A DNA stretch of 35,988 bases from Nitrospirota bacterium (GTDB taxonomy: Bacteria; Nitrospirota; Thermodesulfovibrionia; Thermodesulfovibrionales; JdFR-88), in NCBI GenBank assembly GCA_021789555.1, contig JAJYJK010000023.1:1-35988 (forward strand), in the 5' to 3' direction. Made by a program: the position numbers and the translations under genes. Every line of letters starts with the position of its first letter. Within the stretch, counting starts at the first letter, position 1. Of this stretch, positions 14,132 to 23,235 are shown one piece after another. Below the pieces are notes generated by a model, which was given only the letters and a program-made list of their open reading frames with translations, was not told the origin of the DNA and searched no databases.

Positions 14132-14371
14132 ATGGATAATAACGAACCGGAGAAGATGCCGGTGGAAGAATTGCGAGGCGAGCTCGAGCGTCTCAGGGAC
14201 GAGCTTCGAGACCTCGAAGACATACATTCATTCACCTTCGGGAAGACGTCGGTCCATATAAGCGCCGAAAAGGCTCAGAACATGCAGGCCGAATTCGAGG
14301 AAGAGCGCGGTCAATTTTGCCGGCGGATATCGAGGATTGAAGAATTATTAAGGCAGAGGGGCGCGCTTTAG
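14132..14371 (+). CDS. Small acidic coiled-coil protein, unknown function
   Basis: This 79-residue protein is rich in Glu, Arg and Leu with heptad-like spacing (EELRGELERLRDELRDLED, later RISRIEELL), predicting two helices around a short SFTFGKTSVHIS segment. There is no signal peptide, membrane helix or known motif. A GAGG lies about 10 bases before the ATG. The stop codon overlaps the convergent MFS gene's stop by 4 bases (14368-14371). Coding style (AGG, GAG, CTC) resembles that of its neighbours, which favours a real gene, but I recognise no family. Confidence 0.62.
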   Translation: MDNNEPEKMPVEELRGELERLRDELRDLEDIHSFTFGKTSVHISAEKAQNMQAEFEEERGQFCRRISRIEELLRQRGAL

Positions 14372-15924
14372 GCCGGCATCCGGCGTCGTTTCACTCTCTT
14401 AAAGAGCAGGGCCGCGGCGATGCAGAAGAGGCAGACAAGGGCCAGAAACCGGAAACCCTGCACGTACGCGAGCAATTGGGATTGCCTTAAAAGCGACCTG
14501 TAGATGAAGAATTTAGCTTTTCCGGCCGATTCCGCGGGAAAGGGGCCGGAAGCGAAATAGTTTTGGATCCCGGGGAATTTTAACTGGTATGGAAGGTCCA
14601 GGGGGGTCAGACGGGAGACCAGGACCGTCTGGTTTTTCTGCGCGTGGCGCGCGAGATAGGTTATCAGAAGGGAGATGCCTGCGCTGCCGCCCACGTTTCG
14701 CATAAGGTTGAATATGCCGCTTGCGTTTCCTATCTCCTTTTGTTCAAGCGTGCCCATCGCCACTGTCGCCAGGGGGATGAACAGCATCGAAAGCCCCACG
14801 CCCTGCAATACCGACGGCAATGCGATGTCCCAGATGGATATCTCCAGGTTGATGCCGCTGATGAGCCACAGGGAGACGGCCACAAGAAAAAATCCGACCC
14901 CGATCAATTTCCGGAAATCGGCCCTGTCCGTAAGATATCCCACCACCGGCATCGCCATTAAGGCGCCGATGCCCCGGGGGCTCACGGCCAGGCCGCTGTT
15001 TAAAGCCGGGTATCCCATGAGTGTCTGAAGGAAAAGCGGTATCAATGTTATGGCGCTGTAGAGCGCCACGCCCATCAGGGTAATAAGAAGGGTCCCCACC
15101 GCAAAATTCCGGTTCCGAAATACCCTCAGGCGCACAATGGGCTCTCTTGCGCGCAGCTCCCGGATGATGAACAAGACCAGCGAGACGGCGCTTGCGGCGG
15201 TGAACCATCGTATCCAGGCGGCCTCGAACCAGTTGTCCTGCTGCCCTTTGTCGAGCACCACCTGGAGCGCGGCAAGGGCCACGGCCATGAGCCCGAAACC
15301 GCTCCAGTCGATTTTCTCTGGCCTTCGGCCCATGACATATGGGGGGTCTTCCACGAACGTCCGTATCATCAGGACAGCGAGCGCTCCCACGGGGATATTT
15401 ATGTAGAAGGCCCAGCGCCATGAGTAATTATCGGTGAGCCAGCCGCCCAAGGTCGGCCCGACAATCGGCGCAACGACCACCCCGAAGGCGAACGCCGCCA
15501 TCGCCATCCCGCGTTTTTGAGGGGGGAAGCTCTCAAGGAGGATGGCCTGGGAGATGGGCTGCAACGCACCGCCCCCGGCCCCCTGCAAGACGCGGGCCGC
15601 CACCAGCATGCCGAGACTGTACGCCGCTCCGCTCAGGGCCGATGCAAGGGTGAACAGCGCGATGCAGGCCGTGAGGAATCGCTTCCGGCCGAAATAAAGG
15701 GCCAGCCAGCCGCTGGCCGGCAGCACTATCGCGTTGGAGACCAGGTAGCTCGTCAGCACCCAGGTGGCCTCATCGTTGCTGGCCGAAAGGCTGCCGGCAA
15801 TGTGAGGGACCGCGACTGTGACGATTGTGGTGTCCAGCACCTCCATGAAGGTGGGAAGCATCACGGCGGCCGTGATGAGCCAGGGGTTGACGCCCGGCCG
15901 CCACTGGCCTTCCTGATTATCGAT
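14368..15924 (-). CDS. DHA2-family MFS multidrug exporter (EmrB/QacA type), probable ATC start
   Basis: This is a 14-helix drug:H+ antiporter of 518 residues if started at 15924. Motifs include FMEVLDTTIV in helix 1, GWLALYFGRKRF (motif A), AARVLQGAGGGALQP, and the motif-C-like FGVVVAPIVGPTLGGWLTD. The first ATG/GTG (15861/15864) lies inside helix 1. Upstream in frame the conserved family N-terminus QWRPGVNPWLITAAV is intact with no ATG, GTG or TTG. A perfect AGGAGGT sits 7 bases before an ATC codon at 15924, so initiation at ATC is the best reading. Most such exporters pair with an EmrA-like adaptor; none is adjacent. It is transcribed from the promoter at 15963-15990. Confidence 0.88.
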   Translation of the reverse strand: MDNQEGQWRPGVNPWLITAAVMLPTFMEVLDTTIVTVAVPHIAGSLSASNDEATWVLTSYLVSNAIVLPASGWLALYFGRKRFLTACIALFTLASALSGAAYSLGMLVAARVLQGAGGGALQPISQAILLESFPPQKRGMAMAAFAFGVVVAPIVGPTLGGWLTDNYSWRWAFYINIPVGALAVLMIRTFVEDPPYVMGRRPEKIDWSGFGLMAVALAALQVVLDKGQQDNWFEAAWIRWFTAASAVSLVLFIIRELRAREPIVRLRVFRNRNFAVGTLLITLMGVALYSAITLIPLFLQTLMGYPALNSGLAVSPRGIGALMAMPVVGYLTDRADFRKLIGVGFFLVAVSLWLISGINLEISIWDIALPSVLQGVGLSMLFIPLATVAMGTLEQKEIGNASGIFNLMRNVGGSAGISLLITYLARHAQKNQTVLVSRLTPLDLPYQLKFPGIQNYFASGPFPAESAGKAKFFIYRSLLRQSQLLAYVQGFRFLALVCLFCIAAALLFKRVKRRRMPA

Positions 15925-15962
15925 ACCCTCTACCTCCTGTCTGCATCCTGCATAATAAATCC

Positions 15963-15990
15963 TTTATATCATAAACCGCCGGTAATTCAA
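15963..15990 (-). promoter_or_regulatory. Sigma-70 promoter of the MFS exporter
   Basis: On the - strand TTGAAT (15990-15985) is 16 bases from TATAAA (15968-15963), and a TGA just before the -10 makes an extended -10 (TGn). Transcription would start near 15956, leaving about 32 bases before the proposed ATC start and containing AGGAGGT. Confidence 0.65.
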
Positions 15991-16322: not shown

Positions 16323-17999
16323 ATGAGGAAGTTCAGGTTTTACGGATGGGTGCTGACCGCATTGATGGTGTCGGCGCTTGCGGCATGCGGCGGGGGCGCC
16401 AGCGGAACGAGTGGCAGCGGGGTCTCGACGGGGGCGGCCGCCAAGGCCGCTTCAGGCTCCGGCGGCATAACGGGCCGGGTAATCGACATAGCAACCGGGG
16501 CGCCGCTGTCCGGTGTCAGTATCAGCGCCGGCTCCAGCACGGTTAAAACGGATTCAAACGGGGTTTACACTCTAAACGAACCCGCGGGCAGCTATACCCT
16601 GCAGGCCTCTACATCGGGTTACCTGAACACCTGGCAGATGGCCTCGGTGACTTCGGGGTCGGCAGCGACCGTGAACTGGAGCCTTACGAAAAAATACGGC
16701 AACCAGGCGATACCGGCCGCGAAAATGAACTATGTCGTCCTGGCCTGGAACGACCTGGGGATGCACTGCGACCAGGACGACTACTCGTATTTCATGATCC
16801 TGCCGCCATATAACACACTTCACGCCCAGGTAATACAGCGCGGCGGTGAAGGGGCCAGCGTGGTGACAAGCGGCATAACGGTCAGCTATGTATTTCCGAA
16901 AAAGACCAATACCGCCCTGCACACGAATTTCTGGCAGTACGCGGCCCAATACGGATTTAACGCGCCGGTCAACACCGGCATATCGGGCACGAAGCTGGCG
17001 GGCGACATGACAGTTGATTCAAACAAACTGGGTTTTGTCGCCACCGGAATCCCGCTTAGCCCTTATGATGACGACGGCACCTGGGACCCGTACGGGACCG
17101 CGACGATAACGGTAAAGGACTCAAGCGGAAACGTCCTGCAGACGGCAAACGTGGTCGCCCCCGTCTCGACCGAACTGATGTGCAGCAACTGTCACGGCAC
17201 GGCCAATCCGATGCTGGACATACTCCAGAAACATGACAAAGACAGCGGGACGACGCTCGCCAATGACTATGCGAGCAAAATAGTCCACGCCTGCTCCGAG
17301 TGCCATTCGGACAACGCCCTTGGCGCCGCCGGAAAGCCCGGGGTGGAGAGCCTTTCGCTGGCGATGCATAATTTCCATAAGGACAAGATGACGTATACCG
17401 CGGCGGCCGCAACCATGACCCCGAGTTGCTACAACTGTCACCCAGGACCTAAGACCCAGTGCCTGCGCGGCCAGATGTCCCGCGCCGGGAAATCCTGTCA
17501 GGACTGCCACGGCGATATGAGCGCCATGACCAGCGGGATGCAGGGCGGGCGTCAGCCGTGGCTCCAGGAGCCGCAGTGCGGGACCTGCCACGGCTCCGCG
17601 CACGCGGAAAACGCAAATACGCTTTACAGAAACTCCGTGCTCCGGAACTCGATTGAGGGCGACATGAACGGCAAAATCTACTGCGAGGCGTGCCACAACA
17701 GCACCCATGCCGAATTCACCTCGGCCAATCCCGCGGACCCCACTATCCCCAACAAGTTCCAGGGCGACGATTACTGGATATGGAGCTGCACGGTCTGCCA
17801 TAACAATGAAAACGGCTCGTCAATGCACGCCGGCGGGACCTCCGGCTCAACGACCATTTCCTCCTCGGGTGGCGACAGCAGCTCGACGAGCACGACCACT
17901 TCCAACACGGGTGGCGACAGCAGCTCGACGAGCACGACCACTTCCAACACGGGCGGCGACAGCGGCTCTACGACAAACTACTACACTGGAGGTGACTAG
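16323..17999 (+). CDS. Heptaheme c-type cytochrome lipoprotein with carboxypeptidase-regulatory-like domain
   Basis: This 558-residue lipoprotein begins MRKFRFYGWVLTALMV with lipobox ALAAC, followed by a Gly/Ser linker. A beta-sandwich of the carboxypeptidase-regulatory type comes next (GRVIDIATGAPLSGVSIS ... GSYTLQASTSGY), then a segment with AWNDLGMHC. Seven CxxCH heme sites follow, at Cys287, 324, 369, 392, 419, 454 and 489. The C-terminus is a Ser/Thr/Gly repeat tail. ATG 16323 is chosen over 16248 because it gives the lipoprotein signal and has GGGGAG upstream. It probably works on the outer membrane or periplasmic face in extracellular or periplasmic electron transfer. A short lipoprotein gene follows. 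Confidence 0.9.
   Translation: MRKFRFYGWVLTALMVSALAACGGGASGTSGSGVSTGAAAKAASGSGGITGRVIDIATGAPLSGVSISAGSSTVKTDSNGVYTLNEPAGSYTLQASTSGYLNTWQMASVTSGSAATVNWSLTKKYGNQAIPAAKMNYVVLAWNDLGMHCDQDDYSYFMILPPYNTLHAQVIQRGGEGASVVTSGITVSYVFPKKTNTALHTNFWQYAAQYGFNAPVNTGISGTKLAGDMTVDSNKLGFVATGIPLSPYDDDGTWDPYGTATITVKDSSGNVLQTANVVAPVSTELMCSNCHGTANPMLDILQKHDKDSGTTLANDYASKIVHACSECHSDNALGAAGKPGVESLSLAMHNFHKDKMTYTAAAATMTPSCYNCHPGPKTQCLRGQMSRAGKSCQDCHGDMSAMTSGMQGGRQPWLQEPQCGTCHGSAHAENANTLYRNSVLRNSIEGDMNGKIYCEACHNSTHAEFTSANPADPTIPNKFQGDDYWIWSCTVCHNNENGSSMHAGGTSGSTTISSSGGDSSSTSTTTSNTGGDSSSTSTTTSNTGGDSGSTTNYYTGGD
17868..17951 (+). repeat. Two perfect 42-bp tandem repeats in the cytochrome tail
   Basis: The units 17868-17909 and 17910-17951 appear identical at the base level, and a third partial, diverged copy begins at 17952. 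Each unit encodes 14 residues (GGDSSSTSTTTSNT), so gain or loss of a unit keeps the frame and changes only the tail length. Confidence 0.93.
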
Positions 18000-18510: not shown

Positions 18511-18606
18511 ACGCATAGCGGGCCGTTTCTCCCCCCGTTAAAACCCTCTTTTAAATGGATGGCGGGCGCATCGCCCGCGGCGACGATACCTCTCTGCCCG
18601 CCGGGC

Positions 18607-18659
18607 TTGACAGAAACAAAATAAACTGCAATTATGAAACCCGGAAACGATACCGGGTT
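18607..18659 (+). promoter_or_regulatory. Promoter of the HlyD-ABC-NodT operon with overlapping hairpin
   Basis: TTGACA (18607-18612) is 17 bases from AATTAT (18630-18635), placing the transcription start near 18642. A 7-bp inverted repeat AACCCGG / CCGGGTT (18638-18659, 8-base spacer) covers that start. It could be an operator or a 5' mRNA hairpin. About 75 bases of leader lead to the ATG at 18717. Confidence 0.6.
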
Positions 18660-18716
18660 GTTCCGCATGGGGCGGTTTTTATGGTCATCCCGGAAAAGGC
18701 GGCAGGGGAGAGCGGA

Positions 18717-19733
18717 ATGAAAATTTTTGCCTTTCGCGGCGGATGCCGGCTGCACAGGAGATTTCCATTATTCTGCGCCCTGGTCATGGCGCTTTTTGTT
18801 TTCGCGGGCTGCGGCCGCCGTGTCCAAAACCGCGTGCAGGGCTATGTCGAGGGGGAGTTCGTCTATGTCGCCTCCCCGTTTGCCGGGGCGCTCGTCGATT
18901 TGCGTGTGCAGCGGGGCGAGCAGGTGAAGGCCGGACAGCCGCTTTTCAGGCTTGAAAGCGAGCCGGAAAAGGACGCCGCGGATGAAGCGGCGCGCCGTCT
19001 GGCGCAGGCCCGGAGCCTCTTGCGGGACGAGGAGAAAGGCAAGCGCCCTTCGGAGATGGATTCGCTGGAGGCCCAACTCCGGCAGGCGCAGGCGGCGCTT
19101 GCGTTCTCACAGAAGGAGTTTTCGCGGCAGGAAAAAATGCTCAGGACTGCCGCCACCTCGCGGCAGGACCTGGACAGCGCGCGTTCCTCACGCGAGCAGG
19201 CGCGCGAGCGCGTGGCCCAATGGTCCGCGGACCTGGAGACGGCGCGGCTCGGCTCCAGAGAAGACCAGATACGCGCGGCGAAGGCCAACGTGCAGGCGCT
19301 CGATGCGGCCTTGGCCCAGGCTGAGTGGAATCTGGCCCAGAAAAGGCAGGCCGCGCCAAAAACGGGCCTGGTCTTCGACACGCTCTACCGCGAGGGGGAA
19401 TGGGTCCCCTCCGGCCGTCCGGTTGTCGTGCTGCTGCCCCCGGAAAACATAAAGGTGCGCGCATTCGTCCCGGAGACGCTCGTGGGAGGCATTCATCCGG
19501 GCGCGGCCGCGCGGGTCTTTGTGGATGGCGTTTCAAGACCTTTCACGGGTCGGGTGAGTTTCATCTCGCCGCAGGCCGAATACACGCCGCCCGTGATTTA
19601 CAGCCGGCAGAGCCGCGAAAAATTCGTATTCATGATCGAGATAACCTTCGACCCGGAGACGGCCTCGAAGCTGCATCCGGGCCAGCCGGTGGATGTGGAG
19701 CTGGGAGCAGGCGCGGGGCCTGCGCCGCGCTGA
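18717..19733 (+). CDS. HlyD-family periplasmic adaptor (membrane-fusion lipoprotein)
   Basis: This 338-residue membrane-fusion protein has a lipoprotein-type signal (ALVMALFVFAGC), a first biotinyl-lipoyl-like half (GYVEGEFVYVASPFAGALVDLRVQRGEQVKAGQPLFRLE), a long Ala/Gln/Arg-rich alpha-hairpin coiled coil (about 80-200) and a beta-barrel C-terminal part. It resembles YbhG/YhiI-type adaptors that link an ABC-2 transporter to a TolC-like channel. ATG 18717 is chosen for its GGGGAG and because the signal begins there; longer frames back to 18555 lack this. It ends one base before the ABC ATPase start. It is the first of four genes that together form a tripartite exporter. Confidence 0.9.
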   Translation: MKIFAFRGGCRLHRRFPLFCALVMALFVFAGCGRRVQNRVQGYVEGEFVYVASPFAGALVDLRVQRGEQVKAGQPLFRLESEPEKDAADEAARRLAQARSLLRDEEKGKRPSEMDSLEAQLRQAQAALAFSQKEFSRQEKMLRTAATSRQDLDSARSSREQARERVAQWSADLETARLGSREDQIRAAKANVQALDAALAQAEWNLAQKRQAAPKTGLVFDTLYREGEWVPSGRPVVVLLPPENIKVRAFVPETLVGGIHPGAAARVFVDGVSRPFTGRVSFISPQAEYTPPVIYSRQSREKFVFMIEITFDPETASKLHPGQPVDVELGAGAGPAPR

Positions 19734-19734
19734 C

Positions 19735-20688
19735 ATGCCCGATGGACTCGCAATAGATGTGCATGGGATGACCAAGCGTTTTGACGGCCTGACCGCAGTC
19801 AACAGGGTTGACCTTCAGGTGCGGACGGGAGATATCTGCGGCTTTCTCGGGCCAAACGGCAGCGGCAAGACCACCTTCATACGGATGCTCTGCGGGTTGC
19901 TGAGGCCCGACGGCGGCAGCGGGACCTGCCTGGGGCATGACGTGATGACCGGGAGCGAGGCAATCAAAGGCCTGGTCGGCTATATGACGCAGAGGTTCAG
20001 TTTCTGGGACGACCTGACCATTCATGAGAACCTCGATTTCGTGGCGCGCATGTATTCCATCGGCAACCGCCGCAGGGTCGTGCGGGAGAGCATCGAACGG
20101 CTCGGGCTGGAGGGGCAGGGCAACAAACTCGCAGGAGAGCTGTCTGGCGGCTGGAAGCAGAGGCTGGCCCTGGCCGCCTGCATGATCCACGACCCGAAAC
20201 TCCTTCTGCTGGATGAGCCGACGGCGGGCGTGGACCCCAAGGCGAGGCGCGAATTCTGGGAAGAAATCCACAGGCTTGCCGAGCAGGGGCTTACGTTTCT
20301 CATAGCCACGCACTATATGGACGAGGCCGAGCGCTGCCACCGGCTGGCCTTCATCTTAAACGGCAAGCTGCTTTCGCAGGGCACGGTGGCGGAGGTGATC
20401 GAGCAGGCCCATCTTACGACATGGTCCGTAAGCGGCCCCGACCTGACCGGGCTTGCCGGCAAGCTCCGGGTCCGCCCCGGAGTGGAGCAGGCCGTTGCCT
20501 TCGGAAACACCCTGCACATCAGCGGTGACGACGCGGACGCCCTCCTTGGCGCGATAGCCCCGTTTCGCGCCGCACCGTATGAATGGCGGGGCATCGATTC
20601 CAGCCTGGAGGACGTCTTTATTCATTTTATGGGAGGCCGCGCGGGTAGGCAGATGGAAGGCCCCCGGATGGATGGCCCGTCATCATGA
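19735..20688 (+). CDS. ABC transporter ATP-binding protein (drug/export type)
   Basis: This 317-residue ATPase has Walker A GPNGSGKTT at 39-47, signature LSGGWKQR from residue 136, Walker B LLLLDEP with Asp160/Glu161, and an H-loop in IATHYMDEAERC. The family (CcmA/YbhF type) powers ABC-2 exporters. The start at 19735 follows the adaptor stop by one base, and the end overlaps the permease start (ATGA). YbhF proteins often have two ATPase domains; this one has a single domain, so the working transporter should be a homodimer with the one permease species. Substrate unknown. Confidence 0.92.
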   Translation: MPDGLAIDVHGMTKRFDGLTAVNRVDLQVRTGDICGFLGPNGSGKTTFIRMLCGLLRPDGGSGTCLGHDVMTGSEAIKGLVGYMTQRFSFWDDLTIHENLDFVARMYSIGNRRRVVRESIERLGLEGQGNKLAGELSGGWKQRLALAACMIHDPKLLLLDEPTAGVDPKARREFWEEIHRLAEQGLTFLIATHYMDEAERCHRLAFILNGKLLSQGTVAEVIEQAHLTTWSVSGPDLTGLAGKLRVRPGVEQAVAFGNTLHISGDDADALLGAIAPFRAAPYEWRGIDSSLEDVFIHFMGGRAGRQMEGPRMDGPSS

Positions 20689-21815
20689 AATTCTCCCCCT
20701 CAAGGTTATGGGCGATAGTCGTCAAGGAGTTTGTCCAGATGCGCCGGGACCGGCTGACCCTCGGGATGATGGCCGGAATCCCTGTCTTGCAGCTCCTGCT
20801 CTTCGGCTACGCGATAAACGCAAACCCCAAACATCTTCCGACCGCCGTCCTCATGGCGGACAACGGCCCGCAGGGCCGCACCCTGCTCTACGCCCTTGAA
20901 AACAGCAGTTATTTCGATTTTGTAAGACGGGTGAAGACCGAACCGGAGGGACGCCGCCTGCTTGCGCGCGGCGACGTCCAGTTCGTCGTGAACATCCCGG
21001 AGAATTTCACCCGCGATTTTTTGCGCGGAGCCCGTCCGGCCATTCTGGTCGAGGCCGACGCGACCGACCCCGTGGCGACCGTCAACGCCCTTGCCGCCCT
21101 GAACGCCGCCGTAAACGGCGCGCTAAAAAACGATTTAAAAGGCCCGCTGGCCTTCCTCTCCGGCACGGCGCCCCCCGTGGAGCTGCAGATACACGCCCTC
21201 TATAACCCGGAAGACATTACCGCGTACAATATAGTGCCCGGCCTGATGGGGACGATACTTACGATGACCATGATCGCCATCACCGGGCTGGCCATAACGC
21301 GCGAACGCGAGAGCGGCACGATGGAAAACCTCCTTTCGATGCCGACGCGCCCGCTTGAGGTGATGATCGGGAAGATCGTCCCCTATATCCTTGTGGGCTA
21401 TATGCAGATGGCGCTGATACTGCTAACCGCCCGTCTGCTCTTTCGAGTGCCGATGGCGGGCAGCATCGCCCTTCTGATGGCGGTGACTTTCGTATTCATC
21501 GTCGCAAACCTCGCCATGGGCATCACGTTTTCCACGCTGGCCACGACACAGCGCCAGGCCATGCAGATGTCGATGTTCTTCTTTCTGCCAAATATCCTCC
21601 TGTCGGGGTTCATGTTCCCGTTCAGGGGGATGCCGGTCTGGGCGCAGGACATAGGGGAATTCCTGCCCCTCACCCATTTCCTGCGGATCATCCGCGGCAT
21701 CCTCCTTAAGGGAAACGGTTTTACCGACGTTGTCCGGGAGCTTTGGCAGATAGCGCTTTTTGCCATAGTTGCGATTGCGCTAAGCGTGAAGAGTTTCAGA
21801 AGGACGCTGGACTAA
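20685..21815 (+). CDS. ABC-2 type permease (YhhJ/YbhS/YbhR-like)
   Basis: This 376-residue membrane protein has one N-terminal helix (LTLGMMAGIPVLQLLLFGYAI), a large periplasmic domain (about 60-185), then five or so helices. Between them is the RERESGTMENLLSMPTRPLEVMIGK motif typical of ABC-2 permeases. It starts within the ATPase gene (ATGA) and stops 4 bases before the NodT gene. Paralogous systems such as ybhSR have two different permeases; here there is only one, so it should dimerise. Confidence 0.92.
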   Translation: MKFSPSRLWAIVVKEFVQMRRDRLTLGMMAGIPVLQLLLFGYAINANPKHLPTAVLMADNGPQGRTLLYALENSSYFDFVRRVKTEPEGRRLLARGDVQFVVNIPENFTRDFLRGARPAILVEADATDPVATVNALAALNAAVNGALKNDLKGPLAFLSGTAPPVELQIHALYNPEDITAYNIVPGLMGTILTMTMIAITGLAITRERESGTMENLLSMPTRPLEVMIGKIVPYILVGYMQMALILLTARLLFRVPMAGSIALLMAVTFVFIVANLAMGITFSTLATTQRQAMQMSMFFFLPNILLSGFMFPFRGMPVWAQDIGEFLPLTHFLRIIRGILLKGNGFTDVVRELWQIALFAIVAIALSVKSFRRTLD

Positions 21816-21819
21816 GCCG

Positions 21820-23235
21820 GTGAAGACCGCCTGTTCCATAGGCGTTTTTGGCATGATGGCGCTCTTTGCGCTTGCCGCCTGCACCGTGGGACCGGATTAC
21901 AAGAGGCCCGATGTCGCGGACATCACGCCAGGGCATTGGCATTGGAGGCCGGCCAGCCCGGGCGATACGCTCCCCAAGGGGAACTGGTGGAAGATATTTC
22001 ATGACCCGGTCCTGGACGGTCTCGAAAACGCCGCCGCGGCCGGCAATCAGGATTTGAGCGCGGCCATGGCGCGCGTAGAAGAGGCGCGTGCAGTCGCAAG
22101 ACAGAGCCGGAGCGCATTTTTCCCGGAGCTATCACTCGATCCCTCCGCCAACCGCCAGCGCACTACGGGCCACCTGCCCACCCCGATTCCCATTACGGTG
22201 CCGCCGGCCTACATAAATACCTACAGCGTCCCGTTCGACCTGGGTTACGAGGCCGATCTCTGGGGCCGGCTCCGCCGCTCATTCGAGGCCGCGGGCGCGC
22301 AGGCCCAGGCGAGCGCCGCCGATTATCAAAACACCCTCTTGACGCTTACCGCCGATGTCGCCGCGGATTATTTTCTCATTCGCTCGATGGATGCCGAGAT
22401 CGATGTCCTCCAGGAGACGGTGAAATCCCGCGGCGAGTCCGTGCGTATATTGAAGGACCGCTTCGATGCGGGGGCCATCCCGGAGCTGGACCTGGACAGG
22501 GCAAGGAGCGAACTGGCCGGCGCCAAATCCGATTTGGCCGACGGGACCCGCCAGCGGGCCCTCACCGCAAATGCCCTGGCGCTTCTGTTGGGGAAACCCG
22601 CCAGTTCATTTTCGCTTGTCAGCGGCCCCGCGCCCTCTTCGCCCCCATTGGTCCGGGCGGGGCTTCCTTCGACTCTTCTCGAGCGGCGGCCGGACGTTGC
22701 GCGGGCGGAGAGATTGCTTGCGGCCGCAAACGCTCGGATAGGAGTTGCACGGGCGGCCTATTTCCCGGACCTCCGGTTGACCGGCCAGGCGGGCTTTTTA
22801 AGCTCGGAGGCGGAAAGCCTGTTTTCAAGCGACAGCCGGGTCTGGACGATCGGGCTTGGCGTGACCCTGCCCATCTTTAACGGAGGGCGCATCAGCGCGG
22901 AAGTCGCGCAGGCCCGGGCCTCCTATCTTGAGGCCCTCGCCAACTACCGGCAAACCGTGCTTGAGGCGTTCAAGGACGTTGAAGACTCGCTTGCCGAAAT
23001 CGTCCTTCTGAAACAGCAGGCCGCGCGGGAAGACGATGCCCTCGCCTCCGCCCGAAAGGTGGCCCTGCTGGCGCAGGCGCGCTACGACGCCGGCGCGGTC
23101 GGTTACTTGGACGTCGTCGATGCCCAAAGGGACGTGCTCGATCGGGAGCGCCTGAGGGCCAGGCTGGAAGGGCAGCGCTTCGCGGCCGGCGTGCGGCTGA
23201 TAAAGGCCTTGGGCGGCGGCTGGAGCGCAAAGTAA
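21820..23235 (+). CDS. NodT-family outer-membrane efflux lipoprotein (TolC-like)
   Basis: This 471-residue outer-membrane factor begins GTG, with signal MKTACSIGVFGMMALFALAAC (lipobox ALAAC) and the family opening TVGPDYKRPDV. GNWWKIFHDPVLDGLENAAAAGNQDL and paired alpha-helical repeats (AMARVEEARAVARQ; YLEALANYRQTVLEAFKDVEDSLAEI) follow, as in TolC/OprM. It should form the trimeric channel completing the HlyD-ABC-ABC exporter. There is no clear Shine-Dalgarno, so translation probably depends on coupling to the permease 4 bases upstream. The nested palindrome right after the stop likely ends the transcript. Confidence 0.93.
   Translation: MKTACSIGVFGMMALFALAACTVGPDYKRPDVADITPGHWHWRPASPGDTLPKGNWWKIFHDPVLDGLENAAAAGNQDLSAAMARVEEARAVARQSRSAFFPELSLDPSANRQRTTGHLPTPIPITVPPAYINTYSVPFDLGYEADLWGRLRRSFEAAGAQAQASAADYQNTLLTLTADVAADYFLIRSMDAEIDVLQETVKSRGESVRILKDRFDAGAIPELDLDRARSELAGAKSDLADGTRQRALTANALALLLGKPASSFSLVSGPAPSSPPLVRAGLPSTLLERRPDVARAERLLAAANARIGVARAAYFPDLRLTGQAGFLSSEAESLFSSDSRVWTIGLGVTLPIFNGGRISAEVAQARASYLEALANYRQTVLEAFKDVEDSLAEIVLLKQQAAREDDALASARKVALLAQARYDAGAVGYLDVVDAQRDVLDRERLRARLEGQRFAAGVRLIKALGGGWSAK

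Follow-up and report, generated by a model that had tools for sequence, protein, structure and literature searches.

Translation of the exporter gene at 14368..15924, on the minus strand of the window, very likely begins at an AUC codon, a start position that sequence comparison indicates to be conserved in the genus. The window, that is, the whole stretch of DNA analysed, is an entire contig (C35, 35,988 bases) within a 2.85-Mb assembly. From the ATC to its stop, the gene encodes an EmrB-type DHA2 MFS exporter of 518 aa, which in a profile search scores 443.7 bits against TIGR00711 (cut-off 230.2) over residues 17-503, a full-length DHA2/EmrB match. Homology to E. coli EmrB and the DHA2 exporters (TIGR00711), with 8zal as a solved relative, also runs along the full length. 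The window gene differs from E. coli EmrB in its start codon and in having no EmrA gene adjoining it.

The proposed start codon lies at 15922..15924 (minus strand, like all features of the start region). A Shine-Dalgarno sequence, AGGAGGT (15932..15938), is found 7 nt ahead of it, the spacer being AGAGGGT (15931-15925). Further upstream, 42 nt from the ATC and within a TATAAA box, the frame is closed by a TAA (15964..15966). Between this stop (15966-15964) and the GTG at 15864, the exporter frame contains no ATG, GTG or TTG. The first usual starts of the frame are the adjoining GTG and ATG at 15859..15864, which are codons 21-22 when the ATC is codon 1, and ORF tools place the start at the GTG. 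The earlier note had described the lack of a usual start codon in this stretch, the placement of AGGAGGT before an in-frame ATC and a conserved N-terminus upstream of the first GTG/ATG, and all of these are confirmed. It had also described a promoter of good spacing behind the Shine-Dalgarno sequence. The elements TTGAAT (15990-15985) and TATAAA (15968-15963), 16 nt apart, can be read by eye at 15963..15990, but they match the consensus weakly, and a consensus scan omits them, as the -10 element does not end in T. The block around the second box, GGTTTATGATATAAAGG, is nearly identical in the window genome and G002 and is not preserved in G001.

The genus sample consists of three genomes: the window genome (G000), G001 and G002. 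The exporter of G002 (JAKAHV010000020.1, 87% identity) begins with GGGAGGTAAACGGT-ATC and that of G001 (JAJYGJ010000207.1, 79%) with GGGAGGTAAACCGT-ATA, both in an open frame without a usual start and both with GGGAGGT at the same spacing as in the window. GGAGGT, 7 nt and then ATC, ATC or ATA are found in all three genomes, and in none of them does the frame offer ATG, GTG or TTG where the start is expected; the recurrence of the layout in 3/3 genomes therefore places it beyond chance. The start stays AT[C/C/A] while the two residues that follow it vary (D/A/S and N/S/N). The neighbours of the G001 copy are unlike those in the window, so the start layout was not carried along within one conserved block. 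A comparison with related genomes had been suggested in the earlier note as a check on an ATC start, and the two congeners bear that start out.

The exporter family was sampled in 12 genomes, 10 of which have a copy at E <= 1e-150, and the orthologs share 58-87% identity. Outside the genus they start with ATG, GTG or TTG. Six such relatives were aligned: four, from three genera and with ATG or GTG, begin 1-2 columns before the ATC, one starts one column after it and one 12 columns before it. Most relatives thus start within two codons of the proposed site, in agreement with an exporter start at the ATC.

Coding constraint appears shortly after the ATC. In the six codons ahead of the Shine-Dalgarno sequence, differences between the window genome and G002 at codon positions 1/2/3 are 4/3/4, against 0/0/5 in codons 7-19 past the ATC and 1/0/12 in codons 20-59. 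The leader also differs in length by 5 nt between the two genomes, which breaks the frame there. These differences indicate that the leader is non-coding and that the stretch from shortly after the ATC to the GTG is coding. The first six codons past the ATC have variable residues and weak constraint and do not by themselves locate the start, which is placed by the conserved Shine-Dalgarno sequence together with AT[C/C/A]. Constraint alone would also be compatible with initiation at a different non-standard codon a few triplets downstream.

We consider it probable, with good confidence, that exporter translation starts at AUC by a weak initiation of the IF3-discriminated type. The mRNA would be translated from the AUC at 15924, with the near-perfect Shine-Dalgarno sequence holding the 30S subunit on it, and fMet-tRNA (anticodon CAU) would pair with the first two bases of the AUC despite a mismatch at the third. 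Such two-base pairing is what would make initiation weak and subject to IF3 discrimination. Exporter output would then be low, and a shortage of IF3 or a loosening of its codon checking would be expected to raise it. Beyond the start position, we infer that the initiator tRNA decodes the AUC, that the yield is low and that IF3 controls it; any physiological purpose of the arrangement would be inferred as well.

The arrangement at the exporter is that of known non-canonical starts, in which a strong Shine-Dalgarno sequence offsets a weak codon-anticodon match. The best-known case is infC, the autoregulated gene for IF3, which starts with AUU, AUA or AUC. The exporter likewise has an AUH codon behind a strong Shine-Dalgarno sequence, but its product cannot give self-feedback. 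In S. aureus, according to excerpts of PMC13009471, infC (AUA), ccpN (AUA) and cvfC1 (AUU) start behind extended Shine-Dalgarno sequences, and reporters with non-canonical starts yield about 10% of the AUG level in poor medium. The ccpN and cvfC1 starts resemble that of the exporter in combining a conserved non-canonical codon with an extended Shine-Dalgarno sequence; they were established by initiation profiling and reporters (excerpts of PMC13009471), whereas the exporter start is supported by comparison, and the exporter is a membrane transporter. In Streptomyces, sigR starts at GTC behind a conserved Shine-Dalgarno sequence, AGGAGGTG, and is repressed by IF3, as described in part of PMC5472188. 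It shares with the exporter a non-canonical start, an AGGAGGT-type Shine-Dalgarno sequence kept across species and misannotation by software; it differs in having GTC rather than AUH, and IF3 repression, which was demonstrated for sigR (PMC5472188, in part), is for the exporter a prediction. Listeria has six conserved genes whose start codons are non-canonical and fixed, including infC (ATT) and rnhC (ATC), and reporter strength follows the order ATG > ATA > ATT (excerpts of PMC13068326). Work with a reconstituted system shows IF3 acting in favour of strong pairs at the third position and against weak ones such as AUU/CAU (PMC10158994, in part). By likeness to these cases, the exporter would be expected to be translated at a low rate and to be IF3-sensitive; IF3 control of the exporter is plausible on this analogy. 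The open-licence literature searched offers few conserved AUH starts on genes other than infC, and in it we found no EmrB-family exporter with an AUH start and no report of thrS with one. Gene-finding software as a rule accepts no start other than ATG, GTG or TTG, and the ORF tools applied therefore shorten the exporter and its congener copies by 20 residues.

A serious alternative concerns the function of the AUC start rather than its position: the codon may have arisen by drift, with a mild and tolerated loss of expression and no regulatory meaning. We give this somewhat less than an even chance. The AUC-type exporter start is present in one genus only, since other genera use ATG, GTG or TTG, and so it could be tolerated rather than selected; a gmd gene of G002 likewise has ATT where most of its 14 other copies have ATG. 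Against drift, an AUH codon is kept behind a strong Shine-Dalgarno sequence in all three species, and the only changes are to another AUH codon.

Other genes of the organism appear to start in the same manner. Its infC begins with GGAGGTGATAAT-ATA after GGAGG (L057, G000 C99:194772). Across the order, a Shine-Dalgarno sequence followed by ATA or ATC, with no usual start in frame before or near it, is found at 16 of 20 infC loci; two of the other four were located and do not show this pattern, and two were unparsed. The codon used by infC across the order (L042-L060) is ATA, and once ATC. Directly upstream of infC in the window genome, thrS begins with GGAGGACTGAAA-ATC, also after GGAGG (L100, G000 C99:192854), and the G002 copy with GGAGGCCGTAAA-ATC. 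In the order (L100-L128), 24 of the 29 thrS loci have a Shine-Dalgarno sequence and then ATC, ATT or ATA. The frame is free of usual starts before or near the site at 12/29; at the other 17, which have a usual start upstream or no site found, the start is ambiguous or ordinary. In G015 a stop codon immediately precedes the ATT of thrS, so no alternative upstream start is possible there. Elsewhere in the phylum, a usual start was seen by eye upstream of the match at 17 of 18 thrS loci, among the matches listed, and thrS seems to have AUH starts only within the order. The ATA, ATC and ATT starts of thrS across the order may outweigh the exporter start in importance.

The frequency of such starts was gauged by a screen for conserved ATH codons in 486,823 bases of the window genome and 535,100 bases of G002, which gave 138 ortholog-like coding pairs that are 60% or more identical and differ mainly at third codon positions, some shadow frames persisting among them. 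(A first version of the screen, full of antisense shadow frames, was discarded.) Shine-Dalgarno-like sites occur at matching 5'-end places in 55/138 pairs, and for 22 of these 55, ATG, GTG or TTG is in register in both genomes. Five of the 138 pairs have a conserved Shine-Dalgarno sequence but lack a usual start, whether upstream or within five codons. ATH is in register in only three of the five, namely thrS (ATC/ATC), the exporter (ATC/ATC) and infC (ATA/ATA); the other two have different codons and look like shadow or overlap frames. A conserved Shine-Dalgarno sequence with ATH is thus found in about 3/138 of the sampled pairs. By this comparison, the organism of the window does appear to start genes at AUH codons.

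The exporter start, beside those of infC and thrS, offers a handle on whether IF3 controls genes beyond its own. The AUH starts might even form an IF3-sensed set in the order, infC and thrS belonging to it widely and the exporter having been added in one genus, which we regard as unlikely. If it were true, a failure of start-codon checking, as with 30S-acting drugs, would raise IF3, ThrRS and a drug exporter together. In a separate observation, the gmd gene of G002 (GDP-mannose dehydratase-like; L076:3556-4617, C62) has its ATT after AAAGGAGGCATGAA, most of the 14 other copies having ATG.

A start at the internal GTG or ATG (15864/15861), with the upstream frame serving as an untranslated leader, is improbable. 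No usual start codon comes before them in the frame, and ORF tools settle on them, but they lack a preceding Shine-Dalgarno sequence. QWRPGVNPWLITAAVMLPTF, which is in the exporter frame, begins upstream of the GTG. The upstream stretch WRPxVNPWLITAA is kept with synonymous changes and forms part of the protein where a relative has an ATG or GTG of its own further upstream. The alignment with E. coli EmrB opens at residue 16, five residues ahead of the GTG. An AlphaFold model of the exporter built from nine sequences (mean pLDDT 52.1) was too poor for placing helix 1, about half of which the earlier note expected an internal start to remove, and was unused.

Still less probable is initiation at an out-of-frame ATG in the leader, followed by a frameshift or by termination-reinitiation near the ATC into the exporter frame. 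All three leaders have a mini-ORF with an out-of-frame ATG and a stop near the ATH (at -8 or +5 in the window, +5 in G002 and +11 in G001). In the window this mini-ORF (MQDADRR-stop, 15930..15953, minus strand) overlaps the Shine-Dalgarno sequence, and AGG-AGG precedes its stop, which we take to be a slippery context. However, neither its frame nor its peptide is conserved. From the first out-of-frame ATG (15953) the window mini-ORF is in frame 1, whereas the long ones of the congeners are in frame 2, so that shifts of opposite sign would be required between species unless the window genome uses the second ATG (-22). A frameshift from the leader ATG is disfavoured on these grounds. With reinitiation, the AUH codon would remain the start in use; this route modifies the AUC-start explanation and does not replace it. 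An mRNA structure hiding the start, or a riboswitch-like element, was also considered and dropped: leader folds in the three species are no more stable than shuffles (z 0.28, 0.71 and 0.69). A base-call error at the start codon, suggested in the earlier note, or a decayed gene deserves almost no weight, for although the assemblies are MAGs, some of low coverage, three of them agree on ATH without ATG, GTG or TTG, one having ATA, and the 518-aa frame is unbroken and under constraint.

At its locus the exporter gene, for which AUC remains the preferred start, is flanked by genes for a PEP-CTERM protein and a multihaem cytochrome. No EmrA adaptor gene is present among the flanking genes, and the locus does not show the adjacency of EmrAB-TolC. 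The HlyD gene of the window (18555-19733, plus strand) groups with an ABC exporter rather than with the EmrB-type gene. It belongs to a separate exporter set on the plus strand (18555-23235) comprising HlyD, an ABC ATPase, an ABC-2 permease and an outer-membrane efflux (OEP) gene. The C-terminal end of the multihaem cytochrome carries imperfect Ser/Thr/Gly repeats (window 17840-17999).
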